From a virus: DNA of 35,559 nucleotides. Position 1 is the first letter of the stretch. Every line of letters starts with the position of its first letter. Under the pieces are notes generated by a model. The model did no database searches, had not been told where the DNA came from, and saw only the letters and a program-made list of their open reading frames with translations. Made by a program: the position numbers and the translations under genes. The stretch covers positions 1 through 35,559 of the IMG/VR virus record IMGVR_UViG_3300047557_002625; one strand, written 5' to 3'. Of this stretch, positions 17,284 through 32,646 are shown piece by piece.

Positions 17284-17294
17284 AAACTCACAGA

Positions 17295-17302
17295 TATTTA
17301 TT
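17295..17302 (+). promoter_or_regulatory. TATTTATT motif, putative late promoter
   Basis: GATATTTATTATT stands 14 nt before the ATG of the DUF5856-like gene, in a 33-nt gap after the RmlC-like gene. It has the same core as the motifs at 18483, 19405, 23475, 26725 and 31157. Confidence 0.5.
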
Positions 17303-17316
17303 ATTAAAAATAGATT

Positions 17317-17805
17317 ATGAACAAAAAAGATTTAACTGATACGTTTCTTGAAGAAATCAAAAGAATTTTGATGGAACAAGAAGAAGAGAATGAAACTGAG
17401 ACAGAAGAAACCGAAGGAGACGGAGGACAAAATTCTGATTTTGATGAAATGGTTTCAAGATTACTACACTCACAAACACAGGTACACATATTCCATTTAG
17501 GTACAAAAGGAGCAGGATCTTACGCAGCTCACAAAGCACTTCAAGGGTATTATGAGGGTATTGATGCGTTAGTTGATGGTTTAATCGAATCCTTTCAAGG
17601 TAGATATGGTTTAGTTACAAACTACGAAACTTATGATATGGATAAATTTGAATCGGTTGCAAAATGTATTTCATATTTAACTGATTTGAACAAAATGATT
17701 ACTGAAAAAAGAAAGTCAGTGAAAGATTCTTATTTACAAAATCAGATCGATACGGTCCAAGAGTTGTTGTTTTCAACACTATACAAACTAAAATTCTTAA
17801 AATAA
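17317..17805 (+). CDS. Ferritin-like DUF5856-type protein with (I/L)xE N-terminus
   Basis: A 162-residue protein. The N-terminal helix (LEEIKRILMEQEEE) ends in I-L-M-E and is followed by a disordered acidic stretch. The folded part has SRLLHSQTQVHIFHL, AAHKALQGYYEGIDALVDGL and SFQGRYGLV, a four-helix pattern like Dps/ferritin-type proteins that I associate with phage family DUF5856; iron ligands are not complete enough to claim ferroxidase activity. It has its own putative late promoter and a terminator directly after it, so it is a single-gene unit. The N-terminus suggests head packaging. Confidence 0.8.
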   Translation: MNKKDLTDTFLEEIKRILMEQEEENETETEETEGDGGQNSDFDEMVSRLLHSQTQVHIFHLGTKGAGSYAAHKALQGYYEGIDALVDGLIESFQGRYGLVTNYETYDMDKFESVAKCISYLTDLNKMITEKRKSVKDSYLQNQIDTVQELLFSTLYKLKFLK

Positions 17806-17828
17806 AAGGGGTCTCAACCCCTTTTTTT
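17804..17828. terminator. Rho-independent terminator
   Basis: AAAAGGGGT / ACCCCTTTT stem with a 4-nt loop (CTCA) and a run of T. It begins at the stop codon of the DUF5856-like gene. Confidence 0.9.
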
Positions 17829-17863
17829 ATTTAACTCTATTCTTTTACCATTATTTTTTGATA

Positions 17864-18127
17864 GTGGAAGTTAATAAAAATCTTTTCTATTATTTGGTTA
17901 GGAATTATCCTATAACCGAAGTCGAAAAATTAAATAAACAATACCTAAAGTTAGGTAGTTGTCCTTATTTTTTACACGAGTCTAAGAGAAGGATGAAAGA
18001 TTACTTGTTCGAAGAGTTAGAATCAAAAGTGCCTGAACACTTTGAAACGGATCAAGATAAAAAAGAAGTTTATTTTACGATAAAAAATTACATCGACTCG
18101 GCAAGAGAATTAAAAAACATAACATAA
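17864..18127 (+). CDS. Small hypothetical protein
   Basis: An 87-residue protein; GTG at 17864 (MEVNKNLFYYLVRNY) is chosen over the TTG six bases upstream. It is rich in Lys, Glu and Tyr and mostly helical (EVEKLNKQYLKLG, ESKRRMKDYLFEELESK). No motif is recognised. It follows a terminator and is coupled to the next gene by TAATG, so the pair must have a promoter in the 35-nt gap, where I see only AT-rich sequence. Confidence 0.7.
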   Translation: MEVNKNLFYYLVRNYPITEVEKLNKQYLKLGSCPYFLHESKRRMKDYLFEELESKVPEHFETDQDKKEVYFTIKNYIDSARELKNIT

Positions 18128-18480
18128 TGGCACACCCAATACTTCATGCTAAAAGTTCCGCTAAAAAGTTTGGTGGAAAATGGGAAGATTACATTCATCT
18201 TCATAATTGGATTGATGAAACTAAAGGATGGTATGGACATTCTTTACACAGAGCATTTAGACATCATAGTGAGGGCATATTCGAACTACAAGAAAAGTTT
18301 GGTGCTGAGTTCAAGAATAGTGACGGTAAGACGGTTTATACTAGATATGTTGGCGAACAACATGTAAAAGAGGATTGTAATGGTATTGTACCGTCAGCAT
18401 CTGATTGGATTAAAATCTTGATTTCAAATGAAAGACCTTTGTGGGTTACAAAGACTATTAAGTTAGAGTTTGAAGACTAA
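18127..18480 (+). CDS. DUF6915-like protein
   Basis: A 117-residue protein that starts MAHPILHAKSSAKKFGGKWE and continues with DYIHLHNWIDETKGWY, HRAFRHHSEGIF, and YVGEQHVKEDCNGIVPSASD. This His-rich pattern matches DUF6915 as I recall it, a family in bacteria and phages of unknown function; the conserved His residues suggest metal binding. Coupled to the preceding gene. Confidence 0.82.
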   Translation: MAHPILHAKSSAKKFGGKWEDYIHLHNWIDETKGWYGHSLHRAFRHHSEGIFELQEKFGAEFKNSDGKTVYTRYVGEQHVKEDCNGIVPSASDWIKILISNERPLWVTKTIKLEFED

Positions 18481-18482
18481 TA

Positions 18483-18490
18483 TATTTATA
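18483..18490 (+). promoter_or_regulatory. TATTTATA motif, putative late promoter
   Basis: ATATTTATA follows directly after the DUF6915-like stop codon and lies 12 nt before the chosen ATG of the next gene at 18503. Confidence 0.45.
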
Positions 18491-18502
18491 GTTAAAAAGA
18501 TC

Positions 18503-19225
18503 ATGAAATTATCACCAGAACAATATAAAAAATTCAAAAGATTTAACAACTTTTTAATTTCTGAAGACGCTTCAACATTGGAGTGGCAAAATTATACGTA
18601 CGAATACGGTGGTTATATGGATTCACCATACGGACCTTATTCTCGAGGAAGAGAAGTCGACGGACTACAAAACTTCAGAGAAGAGGTTCGAGTACTTGAA
18701 GATATACTTGAAACAGAACTCCAGGAATTAGATTTTGCAAGACACATGGAGTGTGAAAACTGTACTGGAAATGCTACGATCAATATTATTTACGATGCCG
18801 AAACAATGACCATAAACTTTCAAGTAGACGTTGAATTTATGGAAACCCATGAACATAATAACGAACAAACTTTTGATAGAATCTCAGCTATAGAAAGAAG
18901 TGAATGGTCTACTTACAAATATTTAAAACTATTGGGGAATCAAGAATTTGTTGATGATATTAAAAATAAATACGGCGATGAAATCACGGTTGAATATAAT
19001 GGAGGTGGTGATAGCGGATATATTCAAGATAATGATATACCTGAAGTTTTAGAAAATATTACTTATGAAATTTTAGATGCGTATTATTCTGGATGGGAGA
19101 TCAACGAAGGATCCACAGGTAATATAATTTATGATTTCAAAGATAAAACGGTTATTATTTACCATGACCTGTTCGAAAACAGTACATTCGGTGTTGAATT
19201 AGGTGAAATAAAATTGACACAATAA
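18503..19225 (+). CDS. Acidic hypothetical protein with FLISE N-terminus
   Basis: A 240-residue acidic protein of unknown function. I chose ATG 18503 (MKLSPEQYKKFKRFNNFLIS) because the longer frame runs through the putative late promoter. The N-terminal helix ends L-I-S-E, a possible cleavage site of the kind described for the neighbouring proteins. The body is rich in Asp, Glu and Tyr and beta-prone, with CENC near 83-86. Head packaging is possible by analogy. No family recognised. Confidence 0.75.
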   Translation: MKLSPEQYKKFKRFNNFLISEDASTLEWQNYTYEYGGYMDSPYGPYSRGREVDGLQNFREEVRVLEDILETELQELDFARHMECENCTGNATINIIYDAETMTINFQVDVEFMETHEHNNEQTFDRISAIERSEWSTYKYLKLLGNQEFVDDIKNKYGDEITVEYNGGGDSGYIQDNDIPEVLENITYEILDAYYSGWEINEGSTGNIIYDFKDKTVIIYHDLFENSTFGVELGEIKLTQ

Positions 19226-19226
19226 T

Positions 19227-19257
19227 TTGGTAGTCTGTATAAATGTTATTATATTTG
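19227..19257 (+). promoter_or_regulatory. Bacteroidetes-type promoter
   Basis: TTG (19227-19229), 20 nt, then TATATTTG (19250-19257), 6 nt before the ATG of a 46-residue gene. This fits the -33/-7 consensus TTG...TAnnTTTG of the primary sigma factor of Bacteroidetes. The same arrangement occurs before the genes at 30758 and 34875 (minus). Confidence 0.7.
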
Positions 19258-19263
19258 TGGACT

Positions 19264-19404
19264 ATGAAAAAGGAAGAAATTACAATCAATGGTTTATCAC
19301 TTAGACACGTTGCTCAGATCGTCAGAAGAAAGATGATCCAAAAATCTGTACCCTCAAAAAAAGTCTATACTCGAAAGAATAAGCATAAACTTTCGGAGTG
19401 TTGA
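19264..19404 (+). CDS. Small basic protein, 46 residues
   Basis: A short gene (MKKEEITINGLSLRHVAQIV...) encoding a highly basic 46-residue protein that ends with KVYTRKNKHKLSEC. It has a good host-type promoter right upstream, which makes expression likely. The first half looks helical and the tail is Lys/Arg-rich, so nucleic-acid or ribosome binding is possible. No family recognised. It lies between two genes with late-type motifs, so its timing may differ from theirs. Confidence 0.7.
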   Translation: MKKEEITINGLSLRHVAQIVRRKMIQKSVPSKKVYTRKNKHKLSEC

Positions 19405-19412
19405 TATTTATT
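19405..19412 (+). promoter_or_regulatory. TATTTATT motif, putative late promoter
   Basis: GATATTTATTATTG begins right at the stop codon of the 46-residue gene and ends 4 nt before the ATG at 19417. If it is a -10-like box, the transcript would be almost leaderless. Confidence 0.5.
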
Positions 19413-19416
19413 ATTG

Positions 19417-20268
19417 ATGAGAGATTTAATCAGAGAAGAATTAAGAAAATTCCACAGCAAGGTCTTATTAGAAGAAGAGGATAATTACTATACCTGTAAA
19501 CGATTTGCAGGTAATAGACCCAAATATACTTTATGTAGAAGTATATCATCTACAGGATTCTGGTTACATGACGATAAAGGTCTACAAATGAAAGACCTAA
19601 TCATTAGCACCCTTAAACCACTTTTCGTTAAGTTCAGTGATGAGGAAAAAGAAAAATTTAAAAAGGGTGTTAGAATTCTCACCAAACTTGGTAAAATAAC
19701 TCAAGATAAAAGAGATAAGTTTATTGAAGAAAAAATTGAGAATAATGGTATTGTAAAAGTTAATGGTGTATGGCATCCAGTTAATAAATTAAATACCAAT
19801 CACAGAGACTTATCTGAGTTTTTAACTGATCTTATCAGTAAAACTAACGACAGACAATTGATAATGAATATTCTCCAAGATCCCAAAAAAGGATTAAATC
19901 AAATCAAATACGAATTACCCCAACTAATTAAAGACCACTTCAAAAATACCCAAGACCTATTTGATTACACTAAAAACATTACACAAACATCCAGAGTTGG
20001 TGAAGCCGCAGAAGAGAAAGTAAAAGAAGAATTGCAGGATATGGGATTCACGGTTGGTTATCAAGGAGGTGATGGTGATGTTATTGACATGAATTTTGGT
20101 ACCGATTTAATTATGGGTAGACCCGACATTGGATGGAAAACAATCCAAGTAAAAAGAAATGAAGGTGCTTGGGACAAGAGCAAAAAATACTATTATGTTG
20201 ATTGGGTAATTATTGCTGATCCATTTACCATCTACGATAATAAAACAAAACAACCTGTTGAGTTATGA
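19417..20268 (+). CDS. Putative packaged nuclease: (I/L)xE N-terminus and PD-(D/E)XK-like C-terminus
   Basis: A 283-residue protein. The first 20 residues form a basic helix with L-L-E-E at its end (FHSKVLLEEE). The middle (60-190) is helical and unrecognised. Residues about 193-283 look like a restriction-endonuclease fold: VGEAAEEKVKEELQDMGF with an early Glu, then FGTDLIMG (D230) and TIQVKR (Q244, K246), giving the D...(E/Q)xK pattern seen in PD-(D/E)XK nucleases. If packaged and ejected, it could attack host or competing DNA early in infection. It heads a coupled operon (ATGA overlap) with three more proteins of similar N-terminus. Domain call is motif-based. Confidence 0.75.
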   Translation: MRDLIREELRKFHSKVLLEEEDNYYTCKRFAGNRPKYTLCRSISSTGFWLHDDKGLQMKDLIISTLKPLFVKFSDEEKEKFKKGVRILTKLGKITQDKRDKFIEEKIENNGIVKVNGVWHPVNKLNTNHRDLSEFLTDLISKTNDRQLIMNILQDPKKGLNQIKYELPQLIKDHFKNTQDLFDYTKNITQTSRVGEAAEEKVKEELQDMGFTVGYQGGDGDVIDMNFGTDLIMGRPDIGWKTIQVKRNEGAWDKSKKYYYVDWVIIADPFTIYDNKTKQPVEL

Positions 20269-20612
20269 AATACATAATAACAGAATCACAAGAACTAAGT
20301 CTTAGGTTATTAAGACGAGGAATTGAACTTGAAAAGATTGATAAACTAATTGAAGGTCAAACGGAGATACAAGATCCTTGTACGTTTGATGGTCCTGAAG
20401 ATTATGCTGACTTTTGTATTGGACAGGCTTTAGGTTTTTATTATTGTGATGAAGGATATTGTGATAATGAAGACGATGAAGAAGATAATGAAGGTAGAAA
20501 AGGACCAACAGAAGAAATGTGGGAAGTGAGAGAGGACGTTGAATTATATGTGGAGAATAAGTACTATGACTATCTATACGGATTATATGAAGATTCAAAT
20601 TGCGAAGAATGA
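20265..20612 (+). CDS. Acidic protein with IITE N-terminus
   Basis: A 115-residue, very acidic protein. It starts MKYIITESQELSLRLLRRG, an N-terminal pattern (I-I-T-E-x-Q) shared with the next two genes. The middle has a Cys/Asp/Glu cluster (YYCDEGYCDNEDDEEDNEGR) that might bind a metal. Coupled by ATGA overlaps on both sides. Function unknown; acidic composition could mimic DNA or neutralise basic proteins. Confidence 0.78.
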   Translation: MKYIITESQELSLRLLRRGIELEKIDKLIEGQTEIQDPCTFDGPEDYADFCIGQALGFYYCDEGYCDNEDDEEDNEGRKGPTEEMWEVREDVELYVENKYYDYLYGLYEDSNCEE

Positions 20613-20911
20613 AAATAATAATAACCGAAAAACAAGCTGATCAGATTTTCACAGAAAAAATAGTATGTGAAAAGTGTGAACATTCTTGGAAAAAAGAAGA
20701 GGGTGATAAACATCCTTATCTATGTCATGATTGCGGTTGGGACCAAAAAGAAAAAAGATACGACGATAAGGAACTCTTTAATTTTTGGAAAAACAAATTA
20801 TCAGGTGAGATGAATGAGAAATGGTCTGAAAAATATAAAAAATCAATCGACTGTAATAACCCCAAAGGATTTTCCCAAAGGGCTCATTGTCAGGGAAGAA
20901 AGAAAAAGTAA
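20609..20911 (+). CDS. Zinc-ribbon protein with IITE N-terminus
   Basis: A 100-residue protein from the ATG at 20609 that overlaps the previous stop codon. MKIIITEKQADQIF is followed by a four-Cys zinc ribbon (C20, C23, C39, C42; CEKCEHSW and CHDCGWD), and by a C-terminal motif CNNPKGFSQRAHCQGRKKK that recurs in large-phage proteins. It probably binds nucleic acid or a partner protein through the ribbon. Confidence 0.8.
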   Translation: MKIIITEKQADQIFTEKIVCEKCEHSWKKEEGDKHPYLCHDCGWDQKEKRYDDKELFNFWKNKLSGEMNEKWSEKYKKSIDCNNPKGFSQRAHCQGRKKK

Positions 20912-20917
20912 TAAGAA

Positions 20918-21835
20918 GTGAAGGTAATTTTAACAGAGGAACAATTAGATTTGGTAAACGCCAAAATGAACTACATTCAGATATTGGATGAGATGGTTTT
21001 TTCTTTGTCATTACTAAGTGAGGATGAAGAAAGAGAACCTGATATGGTATGGGACTTCACCACAGCCAAAGATCAAATCAAACAGGCGAGTAGATGGGTT
21101 AAAACAAAAGAAGATGCCATTGAATTTCTTAGAACAGTCCGTGATAAAATTAAAGAACTACCAGACAATACAAAGTTAAAGATCATGGAATATGTGATCT
21201 TTGCACTTATGGGTGTTGTTGGTCTGAAACTAATTTACAGAGTCCTTAATCCACCATTGGAGACTATACAGAAAGTGGAGAAAAAAGCTCTCGAAGATAT
21301 CAAACCAAAATACGAAAGAATTCGTAAATCAGATGAAACCTTATTAAATCATTTGAAGTGGGAAGAAGGATCAATCAGAGATAAAGGAGAACCTGTATTA
21401 AGAGCATACGATCTTGGTGATGGGGCATATACGATTGGTTATGGACACGCCATATTTAAAGGTGAAAATGAAGGGTATGACTTCCTTCCAAACTATAATA
21501 AAATTAAACCTGGTGTTACAAGAATAACTAAAGCTCAGGCGGACACTTTATTAAAAGATGATATTAAAATCGCTGAGGGAATTATCAATAAGATATTAGA
21601 TGAATGGGAAGAACAAGGTATTAAACCTGAATTAACTCAAGGTATGTATAACACTTTGGTTTCTATGGCATATAATATGGGACCTGGTATTAGAACTAAA
21701 GACTTTTTACAATCAATCAAGAAAGGTGATTTTGAAACTGCGAGACAAGAAATCGCAAACACAAGTAGTAACCTATTCAAACAATTCCCTGGATTACAGA
21801 TTCGTAGAGAAAAAGAAGCTCAAATGTTTGTATAA
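20918..21835 (+). CDS. GH24 (T4-type) lysozyme with N-terminal helix and TM segment
   Basis: A 305-residue lysozyme that starts with GTG (MKVILTEEQLDLV). N-terminal region: I-L-T-E-type start, then helices, then a TM segment at about 90-109 (EYVIFALMGVVGLKLIYRVL). The C-terminal domain (about 138-305) is glycoside hydrolase family 24: Glu at 149/150 in LKWEEGS, AYDLGDGAYTIGYGH with Asp165 and Thr172, and YNTLVSMAYNMGPG and QFPGLQIRREKEA. It cleaves peptidoglycan glycan strands. The N-terminal region sets it apart from the lysis-cassette endolysin and fits an entry lysozyme carried in the virion or anchored in a membrane. Confidence 0.92.
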   Translation: MKVILTEEQLDLVNAKMNYIQILDEMVFSLSLLSEDEEREPDMVWDFTTAKDQIKQASRWVKTKEDAIEFLRTVRDKIKELPDNTKLKIMEYVIFALMGVVGLKLIYRVLNPPLETIQKVEKKALEDIKPKYERIRKSDETLLNHLKWEEGSIRDKGEPVLRAYDLGDGAYTIGYGHAIFKGENEGYDFLPNYNKIKPGVTRITKAQADTLLKDDIKIAEGIINKILDEWEEQGIKPELTQGMYNTLVSMAYNMGPGIRTKDFLQSIKKGDFETARQEIANTSSNLFKQFPGLQIRREKEAQMFV

Positions 21836-22497
21836 TGAACGAAGAAAAAATACTTAAATTATTTAAAAAATTTGTCGGAGGTGTTATAGATCTTCACGGG
21901 TTAAAATGTATTCCTGTTTCGGTCGGTGAATTTGGGACACCACATAAATTAATTATAGAGTTTTATCCCATCCGATTTAAATTAGAGAACCCAAATGATG
22001 TTCCTTACTACTACCCAATAGTTGAAAGTGAACTATATGACATTGTTGAAGAATTTTCAGAATATATAAATCTTAATTTAGAATCTGAGGTGTTGTTAGA
22101 TAAAACGCCAGAATTATATTTTAATAATGAGGTTAAAAATAAAATACAAAAAGTTTTTGATTCCGTTAAAGAAATTAAATTCATTACAGGAACTCCATTT
22201 GTTGGATATAGAAGATGGGTCATCAATATAAAATCCGTTGGATTTAAAACTGAGTATTTTGACGCAGATTCGTTTTATATTAAAAATACCGTTGTTCCAA
22301 TATCAGCAACAAAAAATGGTGAAAATGTTGATGTTAATGAAGCAATAAATGAATATATTGATGAATTCTTACCACAGGCAGAAATATACCATGAAACTGA
22401 AGAATATTATGAAGATATTGATCAAGTGATTGCTCAATACCCACTTTTAAGTGCTGACTATGTTGCTACTTACTACGATACCAAATTTATACGGTAA
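21835..22497 (+). CDS. Hypothetical protein
   Basis: A 220-residue protein coupled to the lysozyme gene by TAATG. It starts NEEKILKLFKKFVGGVIDLHG and has a mixed alpha/beta pattern with an acidic C-terminus (YHETEEYYEDIDQVIAQY). Phrases such as SVGEFGTPHKLIIEFYP and RWVINIKSVGFK occur as beta strands. It resembles the many small paralogue-like proteins of the 27-34 kb region in composition but lacks their N-terminal motif. Function unknown. Confidence 0.75.
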   Translation: MNEEKILKLFKKFVGGVIDLHGLKCIPVSVGEFGTPHKLIIEFYPIRFKLENPNDVPYYYPIVESELYDIVEEFSEYINLNLESEVLLDKTPELYFNNEVKNKIQKVFDSVKEIKFITGTPFVGYRRWVINIKSVGFKTEYFDADSFYIKNTVVPISATKNGENVDVNEAINEYIDEFLPQAEIYHETEEYYEDIDQVIAQYPLLSADYVATYYDTKFIR

Positions 22498-22586
22498 GTC
22501 TTATCATAGGTCAAGAAATTATTCGTTTACAAGTCAAAAACAAAAAACTATATTTTTATTAGAAAATAAACAAAAATTAAATTAAA

Positions 22587-23108
22587 ATGAAAAAATTAAT
22601 AATCGATTCAGCACACTCAGAAGTTGGGTTTAAAGTAAAACACTTAATGATTTCTACGGTTAAAGGTAATTTCAGTACCTTTGGTGGTGGTGTACAAGAA
22701 GACGGTAGTGTATTCGTCTCTATTAACACTAACTCTATTAACACAGGGAATGTGGACAGAGACAATCACCTTAAGTCAGCGGACTTCTTTAACGTAGAGG
22801 AGAACCCTACAATCACTTTTGCAGGTAAGATGACTGAAGATATGAAAACAGTTACAGGTAGTGTTACGATCAAAGGAATCACTAAAGACATCGAACTTAA
22901 CACTGAGTATAACGGTATGAGTGTTGATCCTTGGGGAAACACTAAACACGGATGGGAAATCACAGGTACAATCAATAGAAATGATTTCGATCTTACATGG
23001 AATGCACCATTAGAAACAGGCGGTGTATTAGTAAGTGAAAAAGTTACCTTAACTTTTGATATCCAAATGTCGGAAATGGTTGAACAAACTGTAGAACAAG
23101 AAGCGTAA
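22587..23108 (+). CDS. YceI-like lipid-binding-type protein
   Basis: A 173-residue protein of the YceI family, a lipocalin-like barrel known to bind isoprenoids such as ubiquinone precursors. Visible motifs: IDSAHSEVGFKVKHLMISTV (start of barrel), SINTGNVDRDNHLKSADFFN, NPTITFAGK, VTIKGITKDIELNTEY and a C-terminal FDIQM strand. Host YceI proteins usually have a signal peptide; this one has none, so it should stay in the cytoplasm. An 89-nt AT-rich gap before it contains a weak TATATTTT box, and a terminator follows it, so it seems to be a single-gene unit. Confidence 0.92.
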   Translation: MKKLIIDSAHSEVGFKVKHLMISTVKGNFSTFGGGVQEDGSVFVSINTNSINTGNVDRDNHLKSADFFNVEENPTITFAGKMTEDMKTVTGSVTIKGITKDIELNTEYNGMSVDPWGNTKHGWEITGTINRNDFDLTWNAPLETGGVLVSEKVTLTFDIQMSEMVEQTVEQEA

Positions 23109-23128
23109 TACAAACAATACGGTTATGG

Positions 23129-23155
23129 AACCCCACTCAAAAGGTGGGGTTTTTT
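23129..23155. terminator. Bidirectional rho-independent terminator
   Basis: Stem AACCCCAC / GTGGGGTT (23129-23136 with 23144-23151), 7-nt loop, then a T run. It lies between the YceI-like gene and the end of the leftward gene at 23154. Confidence 0.88.
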
Positions 23156-23447
23156 ATTTCATATTCTTTAAGACCATCCCCAAAGAATATATGGACTCTT
23201 TGTCTTGTTTGGTCTTAACTTGTTTGCTTTTGAGATAGTTTAGTGAGTCTATAATCTCTTGCTTCTTGTTAGAAACCTTTGGTGCTGGTGGAGTTTCGAC
23301 GGTAGAATACTCATACTCTAACTCATCGTCAAAAAAAGAATTCTCAACAGGTGCGTTGATACCAAAATAAATCATTTGATAAATCTTAGCTGCCATCATG
23401 GCATCTTTGGTGGTCCAGTAAATGAGTAAGTATCTAAATAGTTTCAT
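23154..23447 (-). CDS. Small hypothetical protein (leftward)
   Basis: A 97-residue protein. The first 30 residues form an amphipathic or weakly hydrophobic region (LFRYLLIYWTTKDAMMAAKI) followed by an acidic segment, a proline spacer (TPPAPKVSNKK) and a helical Lys-rich tail. It lies alone on the minus strand. TATCTTTG at 23452-23459 (minus) matches the -7 part of a Bacteroidetes promoter just upstream of its ATG, but no TTG is found at the right distance. Confidence 0.75.
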   Translation of the reverse strand: MKLFRYLLIYWTTKDAMMAAKIYQMIYFGINAPVENSFFDDELEYEYSTVETPPAPKVSNKKQEIIDSLNYLKSKQVKTKQDKESIYSLGMVLKNMK

Positions 23448-23474
23448 ACTACAAAGATAATCAAAAAATCGTAG

Positions 23475-23482
23475 TATTTATT
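23475..23482 (+). promoter_or_regulatory. TATTTATT motif, putative late promoter
   Basis: GTATTTATTATT ends 3 nt before the ATG of the DHH-family gene, in the 38-nt divergent gap shared with the leftward gene. Confidence 0.5.
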
Positions 23483-23485
23483 ATT

Positions 23486-24928: not shown

Positions 24929-24931
24929 TCA

Positions 24932-26521
24932 GTGGCGACATCAAGACCTTTTGCATTCAACACAGGATCTACAATTTCGGGGACCGAACAATTAGGTGAC
25001 TTAGCGATTGGAGTTGATGATATAGACTATGATGGTGGTGTTGGTGGTGTTACTTGGTGGATGGGACCTGATGAAGATTTAGGTTATATAATATGTAGAC
25101 CAAATTTTACTGGTACACAACCAAATCCCGTTGGTATACCTGCGTACGTCAGATTTCTTAGATCGAAGTTGAAAACAGAAGAATCTTTTGTTAGTTTAGT
25201 TAATGCTGTTTATGGACAGTCATTTACGACAGGGAATGAATGTAAAACTTATCTAAATAACAATGGATTTTGGACATCATGGGTATCAAATTTAAAATTA
25301 TACTTAGATGCGTCAAACCCAAGTAGTTACTCTGGGGCGGGCACTACATGGTATGATTTAAGTGGTAACGGTAATGACGTTGAAATGGTAAACTCAGGAA
25401 GTATTTCTTGGAGTAATACAGGACCCACTTATTTTTCGACAGGTGCTAATGGTTGGTTCAGTAATCCATCAGGATCAAATTTACCGATAGGAAATTCAAA
25501 TTACACATTTATTATTTGGGTCCAATTGGGAACCGTTTGGAATGCAAACGGATTTATGAGTATTGGACCATTTGGGGCTCTTAACATGTCAAATGCTTTC
25601 AGAGCTGGTGGAACTAATCAATTAATAAACTATTGGTGGGGTAATGATTTGTCTGTTTTTACTTCTGTGTCACCAACAGATGGATGGTTCAATGCTGTTG
25701 CAAAATACGACGGAATAACAAGAAGTATTTGGGTTAATGGTGTTTTAGTTGGTTCTGATACCCCTGTTGGACATAACGTGACTACAAATGCATTACAGAT
25801 TGCAAAAACAACAAGTACTGAATATCTACAAGGTAATGTTGGTGAAGTGTTAATTTACGACACTGCTTTATCTGACTCAAGTATATTACAATATTATAAT
25901 GATACATATACAAAATACATTAACGTAACACCAACACCGACGGTTACACCAACTAATACACCTACAATTACCCCAACAATTACCCCAACTAAAACTCAAA
26001 CACCAACACCTACAGTAACACCAACTAATACAGTAACCCCAACTATAACCCCAACCTCAACTGTCACACCAAGTATTACGCCAAGTCTATCTGTTGGAGT
26101 AACTTTTAGTCAAACTTTTACAAGTGGTGCTGCACCAGGATCAACCATAGAAAATGCGTGGACTAGCTTTAGATCACAATTAACAGGATCTTATAGTACT
26201 ATGACATTATCGAGTTCATTAGGAACTACTTTAACAGTAAACGACCCATTAGTTCAAAATGTTGCGAATGCTTTAAAAACAGGAACTACAGGAACTAACT
26301 TTTCAATTGTTATTGGGTCAAGGACTTGGAGAGTAATTCATGGATGTGTTCAAGGAACTCCAGATGCTAACTCAATATATTTAACAAGTTCTGGTACTTG
26401 TGATTGTGGTGGTGGAACAACTTATACAGTAAGACCAATGATTAAAAATGCCAACTGGGGTGGTTTAAATGGGTCTGCCTGCGGTCAACCAACTCAAACA
26501 TTAACAGTAACTTTTTCTTAG
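24932..26521 (+). CDS. LamG-domain fibre-like protein with Thr-Pro linker
   Basis: A 529-residue protein starting with GTG 3 nt after the DHH gene. Residues 1-115 are unrecognised. Residues about 121-326 form a LamG/concanavalin-like sandwich: LKLYLDASNPSSYSGAGTTW, YDLSGNGND, YTFIIWVQLG, GWFNAVAKYDG, SIWVNGVLVG, GNVGEVLIYD. Residues 332-386 are a Thr-Pro-rich linker, and 388-529 a Gly/Ser/Thr-rich C-terminal domain with several Cys (CDCGGG, GSACGQP). It lacks a signal peptide, so it is more likely a virion fibre or decoration protein binding host glycans than a secreted protein. Confidence 0.85.
   Translation: MATSRPFAFNTGSTISGTEQLGDLAIGVDDIDYDGGVGGVTWWMGPDEDLGYIICRPNFTGTQPNPVGIPAYVRFLRSKLKTEESFVSLVNAVYGQSFTTGNECKTYLNNNGFWTSWVSNLKLYLDASNPSSYSGAGTTWYDLSGNGNDVEMVNSGSISWSNTGPTYFSTGANGWFSNPSGSNLPIGNSNYTFIIWVQLGTVWNANGFMSIGPFGALNMSNAFRAGGTNQLINYWWGNDLSVFTSVSPTDGWFNAVAKYDGITRSIWVNGVLVGSDTPVGHNVTTNALQIAKTTSTEYLQGNVGEVLIYDTALSDSSILQYYNDTYTKYINVTPTPTVTPTNTPTITPTITPTKTQTPTPTVTPTNTVTPTITPTSTVTPSITPSLSVGVTFSQTFTSGAAPGSTIENAWTSFRSQLTGSYSTMTLSSSLGTTLTVNDPLVQNVANALKTGTTGTNFSIVIGSRTWRVIHGCVQGTPDANSIYLTSSGTCDCGGGTTYTVRPMIKNANWGGLNGSACGQPTQTLTVTFS
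25925..26090 (+). repeat. Thr-Pro-rich coding repeat
   Basis: About 165 nt of imperfect ACA/ACC-CCA repeats encoding TPTPTVTPTNTPTITPT-like sequence. Such rigid linkers join domains in phage fibres and cell-surface proteins. Copy number may vary between relatives. Confidence 0.85.
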
Positions 26522-26522
26522 T

Positions 26523-26663
26523 ATGTATTATATAATTGATTTAGAAACTAACCCACCACAAGAAGTCCCAAACTTAAGTTTTGAAACTGAAAACCAAGCT
26601 TGTGATTGGATCAACCAAAATGGAAATGCTATAATTTATAGTATTATTGAAAAATCAGAATAG
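26523..26663 (+). CDS. Small hypothetical protein, 46 residues
   Basis: Starts 1 nt after the fibre-like gene (MYYIIDLETNPPQEV...) and ends ENQACDWINQNGNAIIYSII plus a short tail. The pattern of a first beta strand, a helix and a second strand would fit a tiny alpha/beta protein. Spacing and codon use match neighbours. Function unknown. Confidence 0.65.
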   Translation: MYYIIDLETNPPQEVPNLSFETENQACDWINQNGNAIIYSIIEKSE

Positions 26664-26724
26664 TTTCAGAATTCCTCAAGATAAAATTATTATGAAATCT
26701 TGTGTTCATAAAGTTTTATAGTAA

Positions 26725-26732
26725 TATTTATC
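26725..26732 (+). promoter_or_regulatory. TATTTATC motif, putative late promoter
   Basis: AATATTTATCAAT ends 3 nt before the ATG of the SLT-like gene. It heads the 26.7-30.7 kb operon of proteins with (I/L)xE N-termini. Confidence 0.5.
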
Positions 26733-26735
26733 AAT

Positions 26736-27488
26736 ATGAAAAGAATTGTAGATTTAAACGAACAAGATATCAAAAGGATTGTTCTCAGAGTTATTGAAGA
26801 AAACCAATTTGCCGATGCATTGACACAAGTGGGTGATTTAGCAAAAACTTCTTTTACCAAACTAATGGATGACCTTAAATCTTACGCCAAAGGCGAGACT
26901 CCTGCTTCCGATACATCAAGTCAAGAAACACCTAAAAGCGATGAAGAGAGTAAAAGTAATACTTCAATTGGTAAAGTGTCGGCGAAAGGACAGAAATTAT
27001 TAAATGACCCAATCTTCAAGAAGAAACTCAAAGAAATATCCAACGCAATTAAGATAGATGAAAATTCAATCATTAAATTGATGAAACATGAATCAGGTTT
27101 GGATCCAAGTATAAAGAATAGTATTGGTTGTGTTGGTTTAATTCAGTTTTGTCCTGGTGGTGGTAGAACAAAAACCGTTAACGGTAAAACTTATACTATT
27201 GAAGAATTAGGTGGTAATTTGGAAGCTCAGATGGATGCGATTAAAGATTTTTGGTTAAGCGGTTATCAACGTGGTAAAATCAAAAATGCTGCCGATCTAT
27301 ATCTATATAACTTCTTCCCTGTTGCCGCAGGAAAACCTGATGATTTTGTATTACAAGCAAAAGGATTATCAGCTGAAAAAGTGGCAAAAGCAAATCCAGG
27401 TTTTAATAGAAAATTAGGTAAACCTGTATCATCACCTTTAACCGTTGGTGATATGAAAAAATATTATCGATTAACAGGAATGGTTTAA
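26736..27488 (+). CDS. SLT-like lysozyme/transglycosylase with (I/L)xE N-terminus
   Basis: A 250-residue protein. The N-terminal helix DIKRIVLRVIEENQ ends V-I-E. A disordered Ser/Thr/Lys linker (50-85) follows. The C-terminal domain has KLMKHESGLDP with candidate catalytic Glu119, SIGCVGLIQFCP (131-140) and a YLYNFFP segment, as in lysozyme-like transglycosylases of phage virions. It should cut glycan strands during DNA entry. It is the first gene of an operon of proteins with similar N-termini and has its own late-type motif. Confidence 0.86.
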   Translation: MKRIVDLNEQDIKRIVLRVIEENQFADALTQVGDLAKTSFTKLMDDLKSYAKGETPASDTSSQETPKSDEESKSNTSIGKVSAKGQKLLNDPIFKKKLKEISNAIKIDENSIIKLMKHESGLDPSIKNSIGCVGLIQFCPGGGRTKTVNGKTYTIEELGGNLEAQMDAIKDFWLSGYQRGKIKNAADLYLYNFFPVAAGKPDDFVLQAKGLSAEKVAKANPGFNRKLGKPVSSPLTVGDMKKYYRLTGMV

Positions 27489-27489
27489 T

Positions 27490-27849
27490 ATGAGAAACCT
27501 AATCAAAAAAATATTACAAGAGGAAACGGGATCTCCTGAAATTATGAATACGTCTACAACCGAAGACATTCATAAAAAAAACATTGAGTTTATCCAAGAT
27601 CTATTATTGACAAGAGACTTACCAAACATTTGTTATATTGATGTGATATATAATGATTATGCTGATGAATACCGAGTTGAACTAACAATGGAAGGTGGAC
27701 TTACACAATGGTCTTCAAAAAATATGTCCTATGTCATGTCAGACATAGAAGAACAAGCAAAAGAAATTAGAGAAATAAATGTAAATTTGTACATGCCAAG
27801 ATTTATTGATAATTGTGGTGAACTTGATCCAGGAATACAAAGATTGTGA
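27490..27849 (+). CDS. Small protein with LIKKILQEE N-terminus
   Basis: A 119-residue protein. MRNLIKKILQEETGS is the shared basic helix ending L-Q-E. The rest is a mixed domain (FIQDLLLTRDLPNICYIDVI, YRVELTMEGG) ending with NLYMPRFIDNCGELDPG. No family. It starts 1 nt after the SLT-like stop codon and overlaps the next start codon, so it is clearly operonic. Probably a small virion-internal protein. Confidence 0.78.
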   Translation: MRNLIKKILQEETGSPEIMNTSTTEDIHKKNIEFIQDLLLTRDLPNICYIDVIYNDYADEYRVELTMEGGLTQWSSKNMSYVMSDIEEQAKEIREINVNLYMPRFIDNCGELDPGIQRL

Positions 27850-28289
27850 TGAAAGAAATTATTAGAAATATATTGATTGAGGAGACTGAAGGTACTAAAG
27901 ATCCTGAAGTAATTAAAAATGGTGTTAGAGCCGCAGTAAAGATAGTCAAAAGAGAATATCCTTTTGTTGTTGGTGTAGATTTTATTTCGGAATTGAATAC
28001 AGCACTTTACATCAAAGTTAATATTGTTTGTGATATGGATAAAGTTGCTGAATTCTATAAGTCTGAAATCTCAGTAAAAAGATCGTATGCAAAGAGTGAA
28101 TTATTTGCGTATCAATTCTCAATTTTAGACCTTACACTACTATTAACTCAAAGAGAAAAATTTGAGGAATTCATGAAATTCCAAAAATATCTAAATGAAG
28201 TTTATAGTGTAATACCTGATGATTTAAAAGAATTTGATAAATGGGGTGACCCTAAAAAAATTGACGTTGAAGAATTTAGATTTGTATGA
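27849..28289 (+). CDS. Small protein with IIRNILIEE N-terminus
   Basis: A 146-residue protein from the ATG at 27849 (a GTG three bases upstream is in frame). MKEIIRNILIEETEG is the shared helix ending L-I-E. The remaining domain (AAVKIVKREYPFVVGVDFIS, ALYIKVNIVCDMDKVAEFY) looks alpha/beta with a Lys-rich middle. Function unknown. TGATG overlap upstream, ATGA downstream. Confidence 0.78.
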   Translation: MKEIIRNILIEETEGTKDPEVIKNGVRAAVKIVKREYPFVVGVDFISELNTALYIKVNIVCDMDKVAEFYKSEISVKRSYAKSELFAYQFSILDLTLLLTQREKFEEFMKFQKYLNEVYSVIPDDLKEFDKWGDPKKIDVEEFRFV

Positions 28290-28609
28290 GAAATTTAATT
28301 GAGATGGTATTAAAAGAAGAAACCGAAGAGATCGATCAAAAGGTTATGAATTTCTTGCTTAGAAGATATGAAATCAATGAAGTAAATATCGATGACAACA
28401 TTAAATTTAAAGAGGTATACTTCAAAGTAGGAGATGAGTATTATGGTGTTTCCATGTGGGATAATAAAAAAAGACAAGTAAGAGTCATTTTGAATATGTT
28501 AGACGAAAATAATGTTATTGAACTTACACACAATTTTGCTAATGAATATGACCCGTACAGACAAAAAATTGTTAGAACAATTAAAAAGTTTCTATATGAA
28601 GTAATGTAA
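28286..28609 (+). CDS. Small protein with LIEMVLKEE N-terminus
   Basis: A 107-residue protein: MRNLIEMVLKEETEE, the shared helix ending L-K-E, then FLLRRYEINEVNIDD and VYFKVGDEYYGVSMWDNKKR, a short beta domain, ending IRTIKKF-like basic helix. Coupled on both sides. Function unknown. Confidence 0.78.
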   Translation: MRNLIEMVLKEETEEIDQKVMNFLLRRYEINEVNIDDNIKFKEVYFKVGDEYYGVSMWDNKKRQVRVILNMLDENNVIELTHNFANEYDPYRQKIVRTIKKFLYEVM

Positions 28610-29241
28610 TGAAAGAATTGATTAGACACATATTAAAAGAAGAAGTTAGTAGAAAATATGTTAAAGCTACACCAAAGATAGAACGACTTGTCTACAGATG
28701 GTTAAATGACTATTTTGATGGTGCACAAATATATCATAAAAAACATTATGAATCAACACATAGTTTTGAATTTTGTAAAAACGGAAAAGAAATATTAGAT
28801 GTTGTTTTATATTTCGGTAATGATGATGACGACAACAGAAAAACTGAAGAAATGAGTTTTAACAGGGGGATTACGAGAGTCCCAAAAAATGTATTTGATG
28901 ATTTAACCACAGATCTTCCAATGAGAGTAAGTTATTTAAAATACCTTCTTGAAGAATGGTTTGATGATACTTATTTAGGTGAAATCCAAAAAAAGATGGG
29001 TAGAAATGATATTTACATCCCTGAACTTGATATATCTAATACTGACGGTGATATTTGTTTTCCACCGATAACAAAACCTGATGATGTAACTGAAGAAGAA
29101 ATGATAGAATACATTCTTAAATTGGGAAAATATAAAATGGAAGATATATTGTGGTGGGAAGAGAGATTACCAGGATGGATTGAACAAACTTATTTAGAAC
29201 AACTTAATGCTGCTGAATACAGAAGATTGAAAGGACAATGA
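28609..29241 (+). CDS. Protein with LIRHILKEE N-terminus
   Basis: A 210-residue protein: MKELIRHILKEEVSRKY, then a domain with RLVYRWLNDYFDGAQIYH and EILDVVLYFGNDDDD. The C-terminal half is acidic with aromatic residues (DILWWEERLPGWIEQTY). No family recognised. TAATG overlap upstream and ATGA downstream. Confidence 0.78.
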   Translation: MKELIRHILKEEVSRKYVKATPKIERLVYRWLNDYFDGAQIYHKKHYESTHSFEFCKNGKEILDVVLYFGNDDDDNRKTEEMSFNRGITRVPKNVFDDLTTDLPMRVSYLKYLLEEWFDDTYLGEIQKKMGRNDIYIPELDISNTDGDICFPPITKPDDVTEEEMIEYILKLGKYKMEDILWWEERLPGWIEQTYLEQLNAAEYRRLKGQ

Positions 29242-29753
29242 GAGAACTAATTAGAAAAATATTAAACGAAAGTAAAGTTAAGGATGAACTTAGACAATCC
29301 ATCGAAGACGATGGAATAGCTGAAACTGTAGAAAAAGTCGGTGGGTATGATAATTTGGTAAAAATGTTATACAATGGTGATGTCATGGAGTTCTACAATA
29401 TTACAGGTTTTGAACCCATTAAGATTACTGAGAATGGAATGAATATGTATATTGATGATTTGATTATACAATCATTAGGTTTACCTATAAACACTAGAAT
29501 TCGCATTCAAGAAGAAGTTTTGTTAGGCGATTTTAATTGGCGTAGTAGGGGCTCAAACTATAAGTTTACTGCGAGGGCTCATTCATTTATTAGTCAAAAA
29601 AACGGACAAAAACTATGGAGAGTTGTTGGTACCTCAGGTGATTATGGATTTGGTTACTCCTTTATACCAACAAGAAATATTCTTGGTAAGAGATTTAGAA
29701 AACAAATATTTGATCAAATTATAGATAAATACGATTTACAACAATATCTGTGA
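29238..29753 (+). CDS. Protein with LIRKILNE N-terminus, VGG-motif family
   Basis: A 171-residue protein: MRELIRKILNESKVKDELRQ, followed by a VEKVGGYDNLVKMLYNGD segment that recurs in a looser form in the next protein (LVGGIPTLKRIF). The two genes therefore share both the N-terminal helix and an adjacent helical motif, which points to duplication. The body is alpha/beta; a C-terminal stretch contains FTARAHSFISQKNGQKLWRV. Function unknown. Confidence 0.78.
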   Translation: MRELIRKILNESKVKDELRQSIEDDGIAETVEKVGGYDNLVKMLYNGDVMEFYNITGFEPIKITENGMNMYIDDLIIQSLGLPINTRIRIQEEVLLGDFNWRSRGSNYKFTARAHSFISQKNGQKLWRVVGTSGDYGFGYSFIPTRNILGKRFRKQIFDQIIDKYDLQQYL

Positions 29754-30727
29754 GAGAACTAATCAGACATATCTTAAAAGAGAATAGAGTCCAACAGGAG
29801 TTGAAACAAGTTATCAAAGATAGTGATATTTTTAACGCTGCGGATTTGGTTGGAGGAATCCCAACACTCAAAAGAATATTCAAAGATGACCCTGAAATGG
29901 GTTCTTTATTTGAGAAACTAACAGGAACAATTACTTTTTATTATCCTGTTATTGCTTATGAAGATATAGAATTTCCTTTAGATTATGAAATAATTGGTAG
30001 ACATAGTAATATTGTTAAGACTAACCATTGGCCTATAATAAATGTCTTATATGATGAAAACAAACTAACACCTGAAGAAAACGAAGATTTCAAGTCTATG
30101 ATTAAGTACTTATATGATGATGCACAACATAGTGCATTTAAAAGTAAGTTTGAGGATAGTACGATATTCAACGCAAATTATTTTACCGTTGAAGAAATAA
30201 ATGGAGAAAACATTGATCTAATCGGAAGTGGGAGTTTTTCTCTTAGTGAAGTTGAAGAATTACACGATAAATTTTATGGTGGTAATCAAAGTTTGAACGA
30301 AGGCTCCAATAAAGAAAAATCTTTAATTAAGATAATAGAAAACCAAGGACTATACGACTTTATTGAAATGACAGGATTAGACTTCAATAAAGTTAGGTCG
30401 TTGATAAAACAAATGGATAACCCCAAAGACATATTAAAACAATATATTAGAGAATTTGTTTTAGAACATGATGGGATGAGTAATGGGGATTATGGATCTC
30501 TTTTCGCATTAAGATTACCATTGAGTAACACCAAGTATGTTAATGACATATTAGTTCAAGATAGAGAACAAATTGCTGTTGAAATATGGGGATATGAAGA
30601 AGATGAATACGGTCATACAGAACAAACAGAGCAATACCTAACATCAATTAACAATCTAACCAATGAAGAGTTACTATCAATCATTTCTTGGATGATGGAA
30701 ACTATTGAAGGTGGTTATTGGGATTAG
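29750..30727 (+). CDS. Protein with LIRHILKE N-terminus, related to previous gene
   Basis: A 325-residue protein starting with GTG in a GTGA overlap: MRELIRHILKENRVQQELKQ, then DLVGGIPTLKRIFKDDPEMG, parallel to the gene before it. Residues about 190-325 appear to be a second, separate domain after a possible linker (NQSLNEGSNKEKSLIKIIEN), so it may be a fusion of two such proteins. No enzyme motif is seen. It is the last gene of the operon that starts at 26736. Confidence 0.76.
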   Translation: MRELIRHILKENRVQQELKQVIKDSDIFNAADLVGGIPTLKRIFKDDPEMGSLFEKLTGTITFYYPVIAYEDIEFPLDYEIIGRHSNIVKTNHWPIINVLYDENKLTPEENEDFKSMIKYLYDDAQHSAFKSKFEDSTIFNANYFTVEEINGENIDLIGSGSFSLSEVEELHDKFYGGNQSLNEGSNKEKSLIKIIENQGLYDFIEMTGLDFNKVRSLIKQMDNPKDILKQYIREFVLEHDGMSNGDYGSLFALRLPLSNTKYVNDILVQDREQIAVEIWGYEEDEYGHTEQTEQYLTSINNLTNEELLSIISWMMETIEGGYWD

Positions 30728-30749
30728 TCAAATAATTTTATTATATTTG
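30718..30749 (+). promoter_or_regulatory. Bacteroidetes-type promoter
   Basis: TTG (30718-30720), 21 nt, TATATTTG (30742-30749), 8 nt before the ATG at 30758. The -33 element lies in the last codons of the previous gene. Confidence 0.65.
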
Positions 30750-30757
30750 TTTTTGAT

Positions 30758-31051
30758 ATGAAAAAAGATCTGTCAAAAATACTTCACACTTTTACAAAAG
30801 TCGTTTACTCACATAGAGACGATTTGACTATACAGATCACTAAGAAGAATATAAAACGTAAGCCTCATTACAATATCCACATATTAGTCCATATAAAATT
30901 AACTGATGGGTTGTATGCTATGATTCATAAGGGTATTGATAGAAATTATTTAAGAAGTGAAATCAAAAGTCATCTTAACTTGACAGAGGATGATTTTAAT
31001 GTTACATATCAAAATGTTTATCCTGAAACTTTAAATAATAAACTACAATAA
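30758..31051 (+). CDS. MKDLSKYI-family small protein (diverged)
   Basis: A 97-residue basic protein: MKKDLSKILHTFTKVVYSH, followed by LTIQITKKN and YNIHILVHIKL strands and a C-terminal helix plus strand. Start and beta pattern match, loosely, the small tandem family at 32.6-34.4 kb. It has its own host-type promoter. Function unknown. Confidence 0.72.
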   Translation: MKKDLSKILHTFTKVVYSHRDDLTIQITKKNIKRKPHYNIHILVHIKLTDGLYAMIHKGIDRNYLRSEIKSHLNLTEDDFNVTYQNVYPETLNNKLQ

Positions 31052-31052
31052 T

Positions 31053-31142
31053 ATGGAATTAGAACAAATTTTAAGTATGGGGATTGGGTTGTTCGCAACA
31101 TCAATGATGATTATCATTTTTGTGTTCAAGATAGAGGATTAA
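31053..31142 (+). CDS. Micro membrane protein, 29 residues
   Basis: A 29-residue product (MELEQILSMGIGLFATSMMI...) with one TM segment (about 8-25) and a charged end (FKIED). It starts 1 nt after the previous gene. Phages often encode such single-TM microproteins as host-membrane modifiers, but only size, hydrophobicity and position support it. Confidence 0.5.
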   Translation: MELEQILSMGIGLFATSMMIIIFVFKIED

Positions 31143-31156
31143 ATACGTTTACCGCG

Positions 31157-31164
31157 TATTTATC
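31157..31164 (+). promoter_or_regulatory. TATTTATC motif, putative late promoter
   Basis: CGCGTATTTATCTAAT ends 4 nt before the ATG of the zinc-finger gene at 31169. It is unusual in having a CCGCG stretch directly upstream. Confidence 0.5.
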
Positions 31165-31168
31165 TAAT

Positions 31169-32209
31169 ATGAATCTCAAAGGACATATTAAAAAAGTATT
31201 AAGGGAAGAGACATCCAAGAGAGCCTCAAATCACGATCACTCAAATCTAATTGAAAAGATCGCACTTGATTATGTTGATTTTGATGTATGTAAAATGGTG
31301 GTTAAGAAAATTGATAACCTCAAAGATCAATATCTTATTATTTTAATGACGGAAAAATTTCTTAAGTCTTCTTACCGCGAGGAACTTCAAAATCACATTG
31401 AAGAATTAATTCCATTTACAATATATGTATCTATCGCCGATGGTTTATTGGATTGTAAAAAATATGTAAAAAAGTCAAACTCTGAACAGTTATCTGAGTC
31501 AAAAATACCACCACAAGTTTTAAGAAGACACAATTTAATAGATGATTTGTTTACAACTGTAAGAAGTAGATTTTCAAAACGTATTTGTGACTATAGACAT
31601 CCTGATCATTTTCTTAATACAATTTACGAAAGAACTTTAGAGGATTTATATCATGCTTGGTTTTATGATATAGTAACTGATGACGAATGGGACGTTGCCA
31701 GTAAGTACATCGAAGAGTATATTGATGAAAAATATAGAGAATCAACCGTGATGTACTGGATTAGGCAATGTAAAAAAAATAATCGTCTTTACGAAGATGA
31801 AACTAAAGAAGGTTTACTTGATGATCTACAAAATTTCTTTACAAAGAAAAAAAATCGAAATACTAACGACGATATAAAAAGATTTACTTGTGAGGATTGT
31901 GGTGATCCTGATTATCAAATGTACATGGTTAATGACAACATTTGGAATGAATACGGAAATAATTCAAATACTTTATGTATGAGTTGTTTGGAAAAAAGAA
32001 TGGGTAGAAAACTTACAAAAGATGACTTCTCACAACACAAAGATGCTTTAACCAACCAACACAACGATGAGGTACAAGATATACTCTCGAACGATGTAGA
32101 ACACTCATCACAGGAACTTCAAGAAAGATGTTGGAAAGGGTATACCCAAAAAGGTATGAAGACAATGTTTGGTAAACGATACCCTAACTGTGTTAAAAAG
32201 ACAAAGTAA
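31169..32209 (+). CDS. Mosaic protein: (I/L)xE N-terminus, zinc finger, Cys-rich C-terminal motif
   Basis: A 346-residue protein. MNLKGHIKKVLREETSKRAS is the shared basic helix ending L-R-E. A helical region (25-200) is unrecognised. A four-Cys zinc site follows (C241, C244, C270, C273; CEDCGDPDYQMYMVNDNIW ... CMSCLEKRMGRKLTKDDF), a pattern I have seen in other large-phage proteins. The C-terminus carries CWKGYTQKGMKTMFGKRYPN, then a final Cys, a motif that also recurs at the ends of phage proteins. An internal NRLYEDETKEGLLDDLQNF looks like a second short helix start, so the gene may combine pieces of several proteins. Confidence 0.78.
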   Translation: MNLKGHIKKVLREETSKRASNHDHSNLIEKIALDYVDFDVCKMVVKKIDNLKDQYLIILMTEKFLKSSYREELQNHIEELIPFTIYVSIADGLLDCKKYVKKSNSEQLSESKIPPQVLRRHNLIDDLFTTVRSRFSKRICDYRHPDHFLNTIYERTLEDLYHAWFYDIVTDDEWDVASKYIEEYIDEKYRESTVMYWIRQCKKNNRLYEDETKEGLLDDLQNFFTKKKNRNTNDDIKRFTCEDCGDPDYQMYMVNDNIWNEYGNNSNTLCMSCLEKRMGRKLTKDDFSQHKDALTNQHNDEVQDILSNDVEHSSQELQERCWKGYTQKGMKTMFGKRYPNCVKKTK

Positions 32210-32607
32210 TGAACTTACAAGAAAACATATCAAGAATACACGAAGTGATGGGAATAAAAGACATGTTCAAAAACATGTTTGGTAAAAAACCATTAACCAA
32301 CGATGAGAGGTTGGTAAATGTTTTAGTTAAGTTTATTAAGGAAACTTACTCAATAGATTTTTCTTCTAATGATGAAGGTGAAATAACTTATTATGAAACG
32401 GATGATACAGGTGTGTGGAACACCCCAATTATGAAATATTTTCCTAAATATAAAAGATTAGAGTATAATTGGGATTTTGCTAAAGATATTCATAGTATGA
32501 TTAGTGATGATAGATTATTACATCTTGATAGTAAAATGATGGGTAAAATATTTGAAAAGTTATACAAAAAGAAAGTTGATAAAGTAAACGGATATAGTCG
32601 ACTATAA
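32209..32607 (+). CDS. Small protein with NISRIHEVMG N-terminus
   Basis: A 132-residue protein coupled by TAATG overlap. It starts MNLQENISRIHEVMGIKDMF; the ENIxRIxEVMG pattern recurs at the start of many proteins in large phages and contains I-H-E. The rest is a helical/beta mix with GEITYYETDDTGVWN. Function unknown. Confidence 0.75.
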   Translation: MNLQENISRIHEVMGIKDMFKNMFGKKPLTNDERLVNVLVKFIKETYSIDFSSNDEGEITYYETDDTGVWNTPIMKYFPKYKRLEYNWDFAKDIHSMISDDRLLHLDSKMMGKIFEKLYKKKVDKVNGYSRL

Positions 32608-32612
32608 ATTTG

Positions 32613-32646
32613 ATCCTCCACTTGTAAAGATGGGGGATTTTTTTTA
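32613..32646 (+). terminator. Imperfect hairpin with T run
   Basis: ATCCTCCA (32613-32620) can pair with TGGGGGAT (32631-32638) with one G-U pair and a 10-nt loop, followed directly by eight T. It could end transcription of the 31.2-32.6 kb operon. It overlaps a promoter-like sequence for the next gene. Confidence 0.6.

Follow-up and report, generated by a model that had tools for sequence, protein, structure and literature searches.

N-terminal leaders ending in (I/L)-x-E in a giant phage fragment are probably capsid-targeting propeptides of the T4 type

The window considered here is the whole of IMG/VR record IMGVR_UViG_3300047557_002625, a 35,559-nucleotide (35.6-kb) fragment of an uncultured giant phage. 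From position 17317 on, many of its plus-strand genes begin with a short leader that ends in isoleucine or leucine, any residue, and glutamate, a site written here as (I/L)xE; genes with such a leader are called tagged. The strict rule by which the leaders were counted was written after tags had been seen: it asks for (I/L)xE in the first 30 residues, with a hydrophobic residue 3 or 6 positions ahead of the E, for at least two K/R, and for a helix before the site that is free of P and G. By this rule, 11 of the 29 plus-strand genes in 17317-34379 carry a strict leader, against none of 28 in 1-17316. When residues 2-30 of the same proteins were shuffled, strict leaders averaged 2.73 (maximum 8), and none of 1000 shuffles reached 11. 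With looser members, i.e. the gene at 31169 (G in the leader), the one at 20918 ((I/L)xE at residue 35, conserved) and the MKxI(I/L)TE starts, about 15 genes of the window are tagged. The original prediction had named most of these leaders as one tag family; its coordinates agree with the open reading frames (ORFs) and their starts, and the family gains MRNLIEMVLKE↓E at 28286, which had been missed (↓ marks the predicted cut).

All features listed here lie on the plus strand. The first tagged gene (17317-17805) encodes a DUF5856 protein (6e-17) with leader MNKKDLTDTFLEEIKRILME (17317-17376). It is followed by gene 18503-19225, whose leader MKLSPEQYKKFKRFNNFLISE (18503-18565) obeys the strict rule, and by gene 19417-20268 with MRDLIREELRKFHSKVLLE (19417-19473), where homologue leaders end in ...TLNE↓S or ...VLNE↓Q. 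Two short leaders come next: MKYIITE (20265-20285, gene 20265-20612), with (I/L)xE at residue 7, and MKIIITE (20609-20629, gene 20609-20911), which is kept in homologues and precedes a Cys-rich protein. The phage-lysozyme gene (20918-21835) has a leader region (20918-21022) with two possible cuts, after residue 7 (VKVILTE, GTG start) and after residue 35 (SLLSE↓D); the latter is conserved in homologues as (I/L)(S/T/F)ED. Further on are the DHH gene (23486-24928; leader MEKQNLILKKNILSE, 23486-23530) and the SLT gene (26736-27488; strict leader MKRIVDLNEQDIKRIVLRVIEE, 26736-26801). Then come six closely packed genes, all with strict leaders: MRNLIKKILQE (27490-27522, gene 27490-27849), MKEIIRNILIE (27849-27881, gene 27849-28289), MRNLIEMVLKE (28286-28318, gene 28286-28609), MKELIRHILKE (28609-28641, gene 28609-29241), MRELIRKILNE (29238-29270, gene 29238-29753) and MRELIRHILKE with a GTG start (29750-29782, gene 29750-30727; homologues start MRELIRHILKEN). 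The last tagged gene (31169-32209) has leader MNLKGHIKKVLRE (31169-31207; homologue MNLKKHIRKVLEE).

The enzyme labels given in the original prediction fared unevenly. The lysozyme at 20918 is firm (Pfam 3e-18). The SLT domain at 26736 (Pfam 1.4e-4) is just above its cut-off and the DHH/RecJ domain at 23486 (6e-5 and 1.5e-4) lies below the curated cut-offs, so that both labels are weak. The 19417 protein, said to be a nuclease, has no match in Pfam, PHROG or NCBIfam.

Tagged genes of the window tend to be neighbours (9 adjacent pairs versus 2.6 by chance), as would be expected if neighbouring genes had recently copied each other's first codons by gene-start recombination, the shared starts having no function. 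We consider this extremely improbable. The mature parts belong to many unrelated families, homologues with tags of other types or lengths still keep the site, and the leaders of 27490-29750 have the same residues in different codons, as had been claimed. Since the codons differ, an effect of the first codons on translation start was likewise rejected as the cause of the shared starts. Copying may be the route by which tags spread, but it leaves their maintenance unexplained.

Because the strict rule came after the examples, a test independent of it was run: out of 2017 proteins encoded by the window and related contigs, 471 families were formed on the basis of the sequence after residue 35, and each family was counted once. 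Within residues 1-30, (I/L)xE was found in 219.9 families versus 152.2 in shuffles (z 8.9), and in the interior residues 41-70 z was 0.5. Control motifs in residues 1-30 gave z values of 0.4 (VxE), -2.0 ([FYWM]xE), -1.5 (AxE), -5.1 ([KR]xE), 1.5 ((I/L)xD), 0.7 ((I/L)xQ) and 0.4 ((I/L)xK). With an SxE ratio of 1.04 and the value for AxE just given, the A/S-X-E motif of the phiKZ/SPN3US type is thus not enriched here. N-termini centred on the Glu favour L/I at -2, T/E/S at -1, Q/E/S at +1 and K/R at -5 to -9. In W01, of the sister clade (L010-L041), (I/L)xE is only weakly specific and (I/L)xD is raised too; W01 is therefore left out of this argument. T4 gp21 cleaves after L/I-X-E, and replacement of the Glu by Asp blocks cutting (PMC9026906): at the level of sequence, the (I/L)xE preference is the known specificity of that protease. 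The leaders do look basic and amphipathic, and the helix could be a membrane- or DNA-binding segment unrelated to any protease, (I/L)xE being merely part of it. That is very unlikely, since the enrichment needs I/L and E exactly two apart and does not extend to V or D, leaders as short as 6-7 residues still have the site in place, and the protease described below itself bears this site, ahead of the catalytic domain.

The DHH protein illustrates the variable leader and the fixed site. It has hundreds of relatives in IMG/VR (at least 600 matches listed); distant ones are encoded by phage genomes of 634 kb (39% identity), 642 kb (36%) and 735 kb (28%, partial). Among 55 distinct N-termini the Glu is present in all 55, I/L stands two before it in 53 and Ser follows it in 52; in the two exceptions, read as the 634- and 642-kb phages, INE sits one residue earlier. 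The middle residue of the site is of seven kinds and the leader, measured to the nearest ATG, is of 6-19 residues; that of the 634-kb phage is quite different (MISKYNQFINE↓EVGLRNI). In contig G047, of the sister clade (L360-L367), an untagged DHH homologue begins M-SGIKKIRK; its start coincides exactly with the predicted cut, and a stop codon immediately precedes it. Site conservation with variable leaders was also found for the DUF5856 (21 members), lysozyme and 19417 families. As a separate observation, C-terminal additions to the tagged DHH protein differ between phages: one of about 300 amino acids in L058 (L058:3678-6023) and, by eye, an acetyltransferase-like part in L066 (L066:1595-3553).

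Head genes were sought in relatives. The original prediction had called for a gp21-like prohead protease, whose absence from the complete genome would have refuted it; no head gene, protease included, is present on the window's 35.6-kb fragment, but the protease and other head genes were found in a tagged relative, and as far as the check could be taken the refutation did not come about. The relative is G064 (IMGVR_UViG_3300031951_000001, 322,372 bp), reached by walking with the tail sheath; its tagged DHH protein is 61% identical to that of the window and starts MKKLINE↓SGIRDI. It has a T4 head operon with terminase (6e-14), portal (2e-77), a scaffold-like gene, Gp23 (2e-73) and a protease of the S77/gp21 family (Pfam E 1.2e-24, 87 bits versus a cut-off of 27). 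This protease matches the solved T4 gp21 (5jbl) at 1.5e-15; it has the His in ELNHP, where the 5jbl chain has NAP, and keeps the serine of ISSRG/VASRG. The 5jbl crystal form is presumably an inactive His mutant. The Gp23 capsid protein of G064 has LINE↓ATSD near residue 60, a predicted propeptide site; T4 Gp23 loses 65 residues. All 88 distinct S77 N-terminal segments have (I/L)xE, then mostly Ser or Asn, upstream of the catalytic domain, and here too the leader varies while the site is fixed. T4 gp21 has such a site, LIE-9, and the removal of nine residues is believed to activate it (PMC9026906, PMC9958956). Finally, 21 large contigs were chosen only by the presence of the RLTES[D/E]L tag as DNA: 18 of them, including all eight of at least 257 kb, encode a protease above the Pfam cut-off.

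Two observations on scaffolds stand beside these. In the 634-735 kb phages (L007:1447 on, L006:1417 on, L019:18546 on), S77 protease and a long scaffold-like part are joined in one protein, the latter with about eleven repeats of DKNIAYSEYIAEN, each with (I/L)AE. Imitation of the scaffold by the tag was also considered: against the first 60 scaffold residues of G064, a score of at least 28 was reached by 11 N-termini versus 2 internal and 0 C-terminal stretches. Suggestive as this is in G064, we do not claim it, because the region was chosen afterwards and W01 has no overall excess.

From the tag family with its gp21-type motif specificity and modularity, and from the gp21 family in tagged relatives, we think it likely that these are T4-type capsid-targeting propeptides, as originally proposed, and we infer packaging, cleavage, ejection and function on that basis. 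The fixed site behind variable leaders, the untagged DHH homologue and, described below, the internal tags, the two structure models and the TATTTAT element shared with virion genes speak for the same reading. Since relatives carry the matching protease, tagged proteins are probably cargo of the virion, and perhaps reach the bacterium. In T4, leaders bind the prohead core, gp21 cuts them, and the mature proteins are ejected (PMC9026906, PMC3012670, PMC9391042). By analogy, the leader helix of 7-35 residues would bind the growing prohead core, so that the tagged protein is built into the head; a gp21-type prohead protease would cut after (I/L)-x-E and the leader would leave; the mature protein would remain in the head with the DNA; and at least some mature proteins would probably be ejected into the host, as are the T4 internal proteins and Alt.

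The same cleavage could serve another end, the tagged proteins being scaffold-like components of the prohead core that, once gp21 has cut them, are either expelled or stay behind as structural filler, with no delivery to the host. The T4 core proteins gp22, gp67 and gp68 are likewise cut at (I/L)xE (PMC9026906), and some tagged genes do sit within the head operon. We nevertheless find it unlikely: there are enzymes among the tagged proteins (lysozyme, SLT, DHH), each has a single N-terminal site with a folded domain behind, and, in contrast to core genes, tagged proteins show little conservation and vary from phage to phage.

Several points weigh against capsid targeting itself. The 18 of 21 contigs stand without a base rate from untagged contigs of similar size, and 32 DHH contigs, which are fragmentary, have no protease, no major capsid protein having been found in DHH-flanking contigs either; for these two reasons co-occurrence with the protease is support and not proof. 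The window's own phage, as said above, has no protease on its fragment. The tag is not kept by every homologue, the distant homologues of the 18503 protein having no site. Lysozyme and SLT domains in relatives are often those of tail or lysis proteins, and no virion proteome of such phages was found in the literature searched. As to the cargo, judged by sequence, the lysozyme and SLT proteins may aid DNA entry, or may be tail proteins, and nucleic acids could be what the DHH/RecJ-like protein acts on. The suggestion that the cargo is a store of host-takeover effectors is a hypothesis.

Tags also occur inside ORFs. A single 612-amino-acid ORF of L058 joins three modules: the second is homologous to the window's 28609 protein, the homology starting exactly behind the internal tag SLKESIKNVLDE↓E, and the third follows NLQENIRIVLRE↓E. 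Further internal tags were found in L597 and G012. The G012 tag has no start codon in the 14 preceding codons, and the first tag of L597 has only an ATG 14 codons upstream; at the remaining four internal tags, an ATG or GTG lies 4-8 codons ahead and makes re-initiation possible. These tag-separated ORFs are polyprotein-like; as they come from single contigs, some may be assembly errors. At the other end of proteins, the module CWxGYTQKGMKTMFGKRYPNCVKK recurs C-terminally on different proteins (L526, L590, L073 and others); in the window it forms the end of the 31169 protein (32117-32206), as ELQE↓RCWKGYTQKGMKTMFGKRYPNCVKKTK, a possible second cut. (I/L)xE precedes 11 of 14 such modules, which possibly mark a C-terminal processing site. 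AlphaFold models of the 27849 and 28609 proteins have the leader as a low-confidence helix ahead of a confident domain; for 27849, the predicted local distance difference test (pLDDT) is below 50 at residues 1-14 and the remainder is a confident domain, the fold of the mature protein having no match in PDB.

Many tagged genes are preceded by a common element. In the near clade, the commonest 7-mer upstream of gene starts is TATTTAT, mostly 11-13 or 20-24 nucleotides before the start codon. Among genes with a free upstream region, and with families weighted, it precedes 71% of the tagged versus 22% of the untagged (Fisher p 5e-28); the Bacteroidota-like TAnnTTTG has the opposite tendency (7% versus 18%). 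In the window, TATTTAT precedes every tagged gene that has a free upstream region, five in number, namely at 17295-17301, 18483-18489, 19405-19411, 23475-23481 and 26725-26731 (ahead of 17317, 18503, 19417, 23486 and 26736), and at 31157-31163 ahead of 31169; almost no other gene has it. In G064 or G021 it also stands ahead of some large tail genes and of the genes for terminase, protease, the scaffold-like protein, neck, sheath and tube; before the portal, major capsid protein, RNR-like and DnaK-like genes of G064 it was not found, and in G021 DnaB has it. The association is not significant in W04, G061, W01 and G047, and we therefore limit it to the near clade. There, TATTTAT would appear to be a promoter class common to tagged and virion genes. 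As it lies 11-13 nucleotides before many starts in the window, G021 and G064, transcripts may be nearly leaderless.

Other recurrent starts were noted in passing. In G047 and W01 many genes start MK(Y/H)(L/I)KxFExF, a second common N-terminus for which (I/L)xE accounts only in part. G021 (201050-204076, L140) and G064 (32037-34179, L465) have small genes in tandem that begin MKYLITESQIDxxxFKYLD. Several starts in a more distant giant phage, L350 (LR756508, 484 kb), read MRLSERKLRRIVKEEIxRVLxE or nearly so, and are another tag family. The window itself has tandem small paralogues at 32630-34379 that begin MKDLSKYIESLLD, have no (I/L)xE site and are also found in contig G013. Outside the tagged region, 7883-9790 encodes a 635-amino-acid protein with a signal peptide and a C-terminal type IX secretion sorting domain (TIGR04183, 5e-11), apparently a phage-coded protein meant for export by a Bacteroidota host.

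A wider view, which we hold tentatively and at slightly less than even chances, is that uncultured T4-superfamily phages, probably those of Bacteroidota, use a general code for the loading of cargo. In each genome dozens of unrelated proteins, some as tag-separated polyproteins, would share a promoter class with virion genes, be brought into the head by interchangeable leaders, be released by gp21 and be injected as host-takeover or anti-defence effectors. T4 proteins of this sort stop restriction by the host, and infection of particular strains depends on them (PMC9391042, PMC3012670). If true, an N-terminal code would predict from DNA alone the head-carried proteins of abundant uncultured giant phages, many 'hypothetical proteins' would become candidate injected effectors, and the gp21 and capsid-targeting sequence (CTS) mechanism would extend beyond the four T4 proteins to dozens of families.

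In principle this is the system of T4, and a review of that phage already proposes the CTS as a general way for T4-like phages to carry diverse proteins (PMC9026906). No published account of this tag was found in the literature searched, nor anything there on a system of this scale, on these leader families, on ORFs separated by tags or on a link with a promoter. As in T4 IPI-IPIII and Alt, the leaders are short and N-terminal (7-19 residues in T4) and end in an (L/I)-X-E site; the Alt propeptide has 7 residues, as has the leader MKYIITE (PMC9026906). A tagged relative has, like T4, a protease of the same Pfam family (S77) with its own N-terminal site, a Gp23 capsid and a T4 portal. The differences lie in the dozens of cargo families per genome, against four proteins in T4, in the leaders themselves (ELIRHILKEE, RLTESDLxxLVKxVINE, MKYIITE), in the multi-module ORFs separated by tags, and in a virion content that here is predicted; TATTTAT, too, looks like a phage-specific promoter class, unlike the late TATAAATA of T4. 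In the giant phages phiKZ and SPN3US (gp175, gp245), too, a gp21-related protease cleaves many internal proteins behind a Glu; there, however, the motif is (A/S)-X-E and propeptides are mostly longer than 100 residues, whereas here the site is (I/L)-x-E and the leaders are short. The cultured Flavobacterium phage immuto (NC_055915) has gp21 (E 7e-36), Gp23 and T4 gp20, and genes with a repeated leader, MENFDLKKFLVENKLT, beside the head operon. No virion proteome of it was found in the literature searched. It differs in its smaller genome and its own leader family and, being in culture, makes the capsid-targeting reading directly testable.

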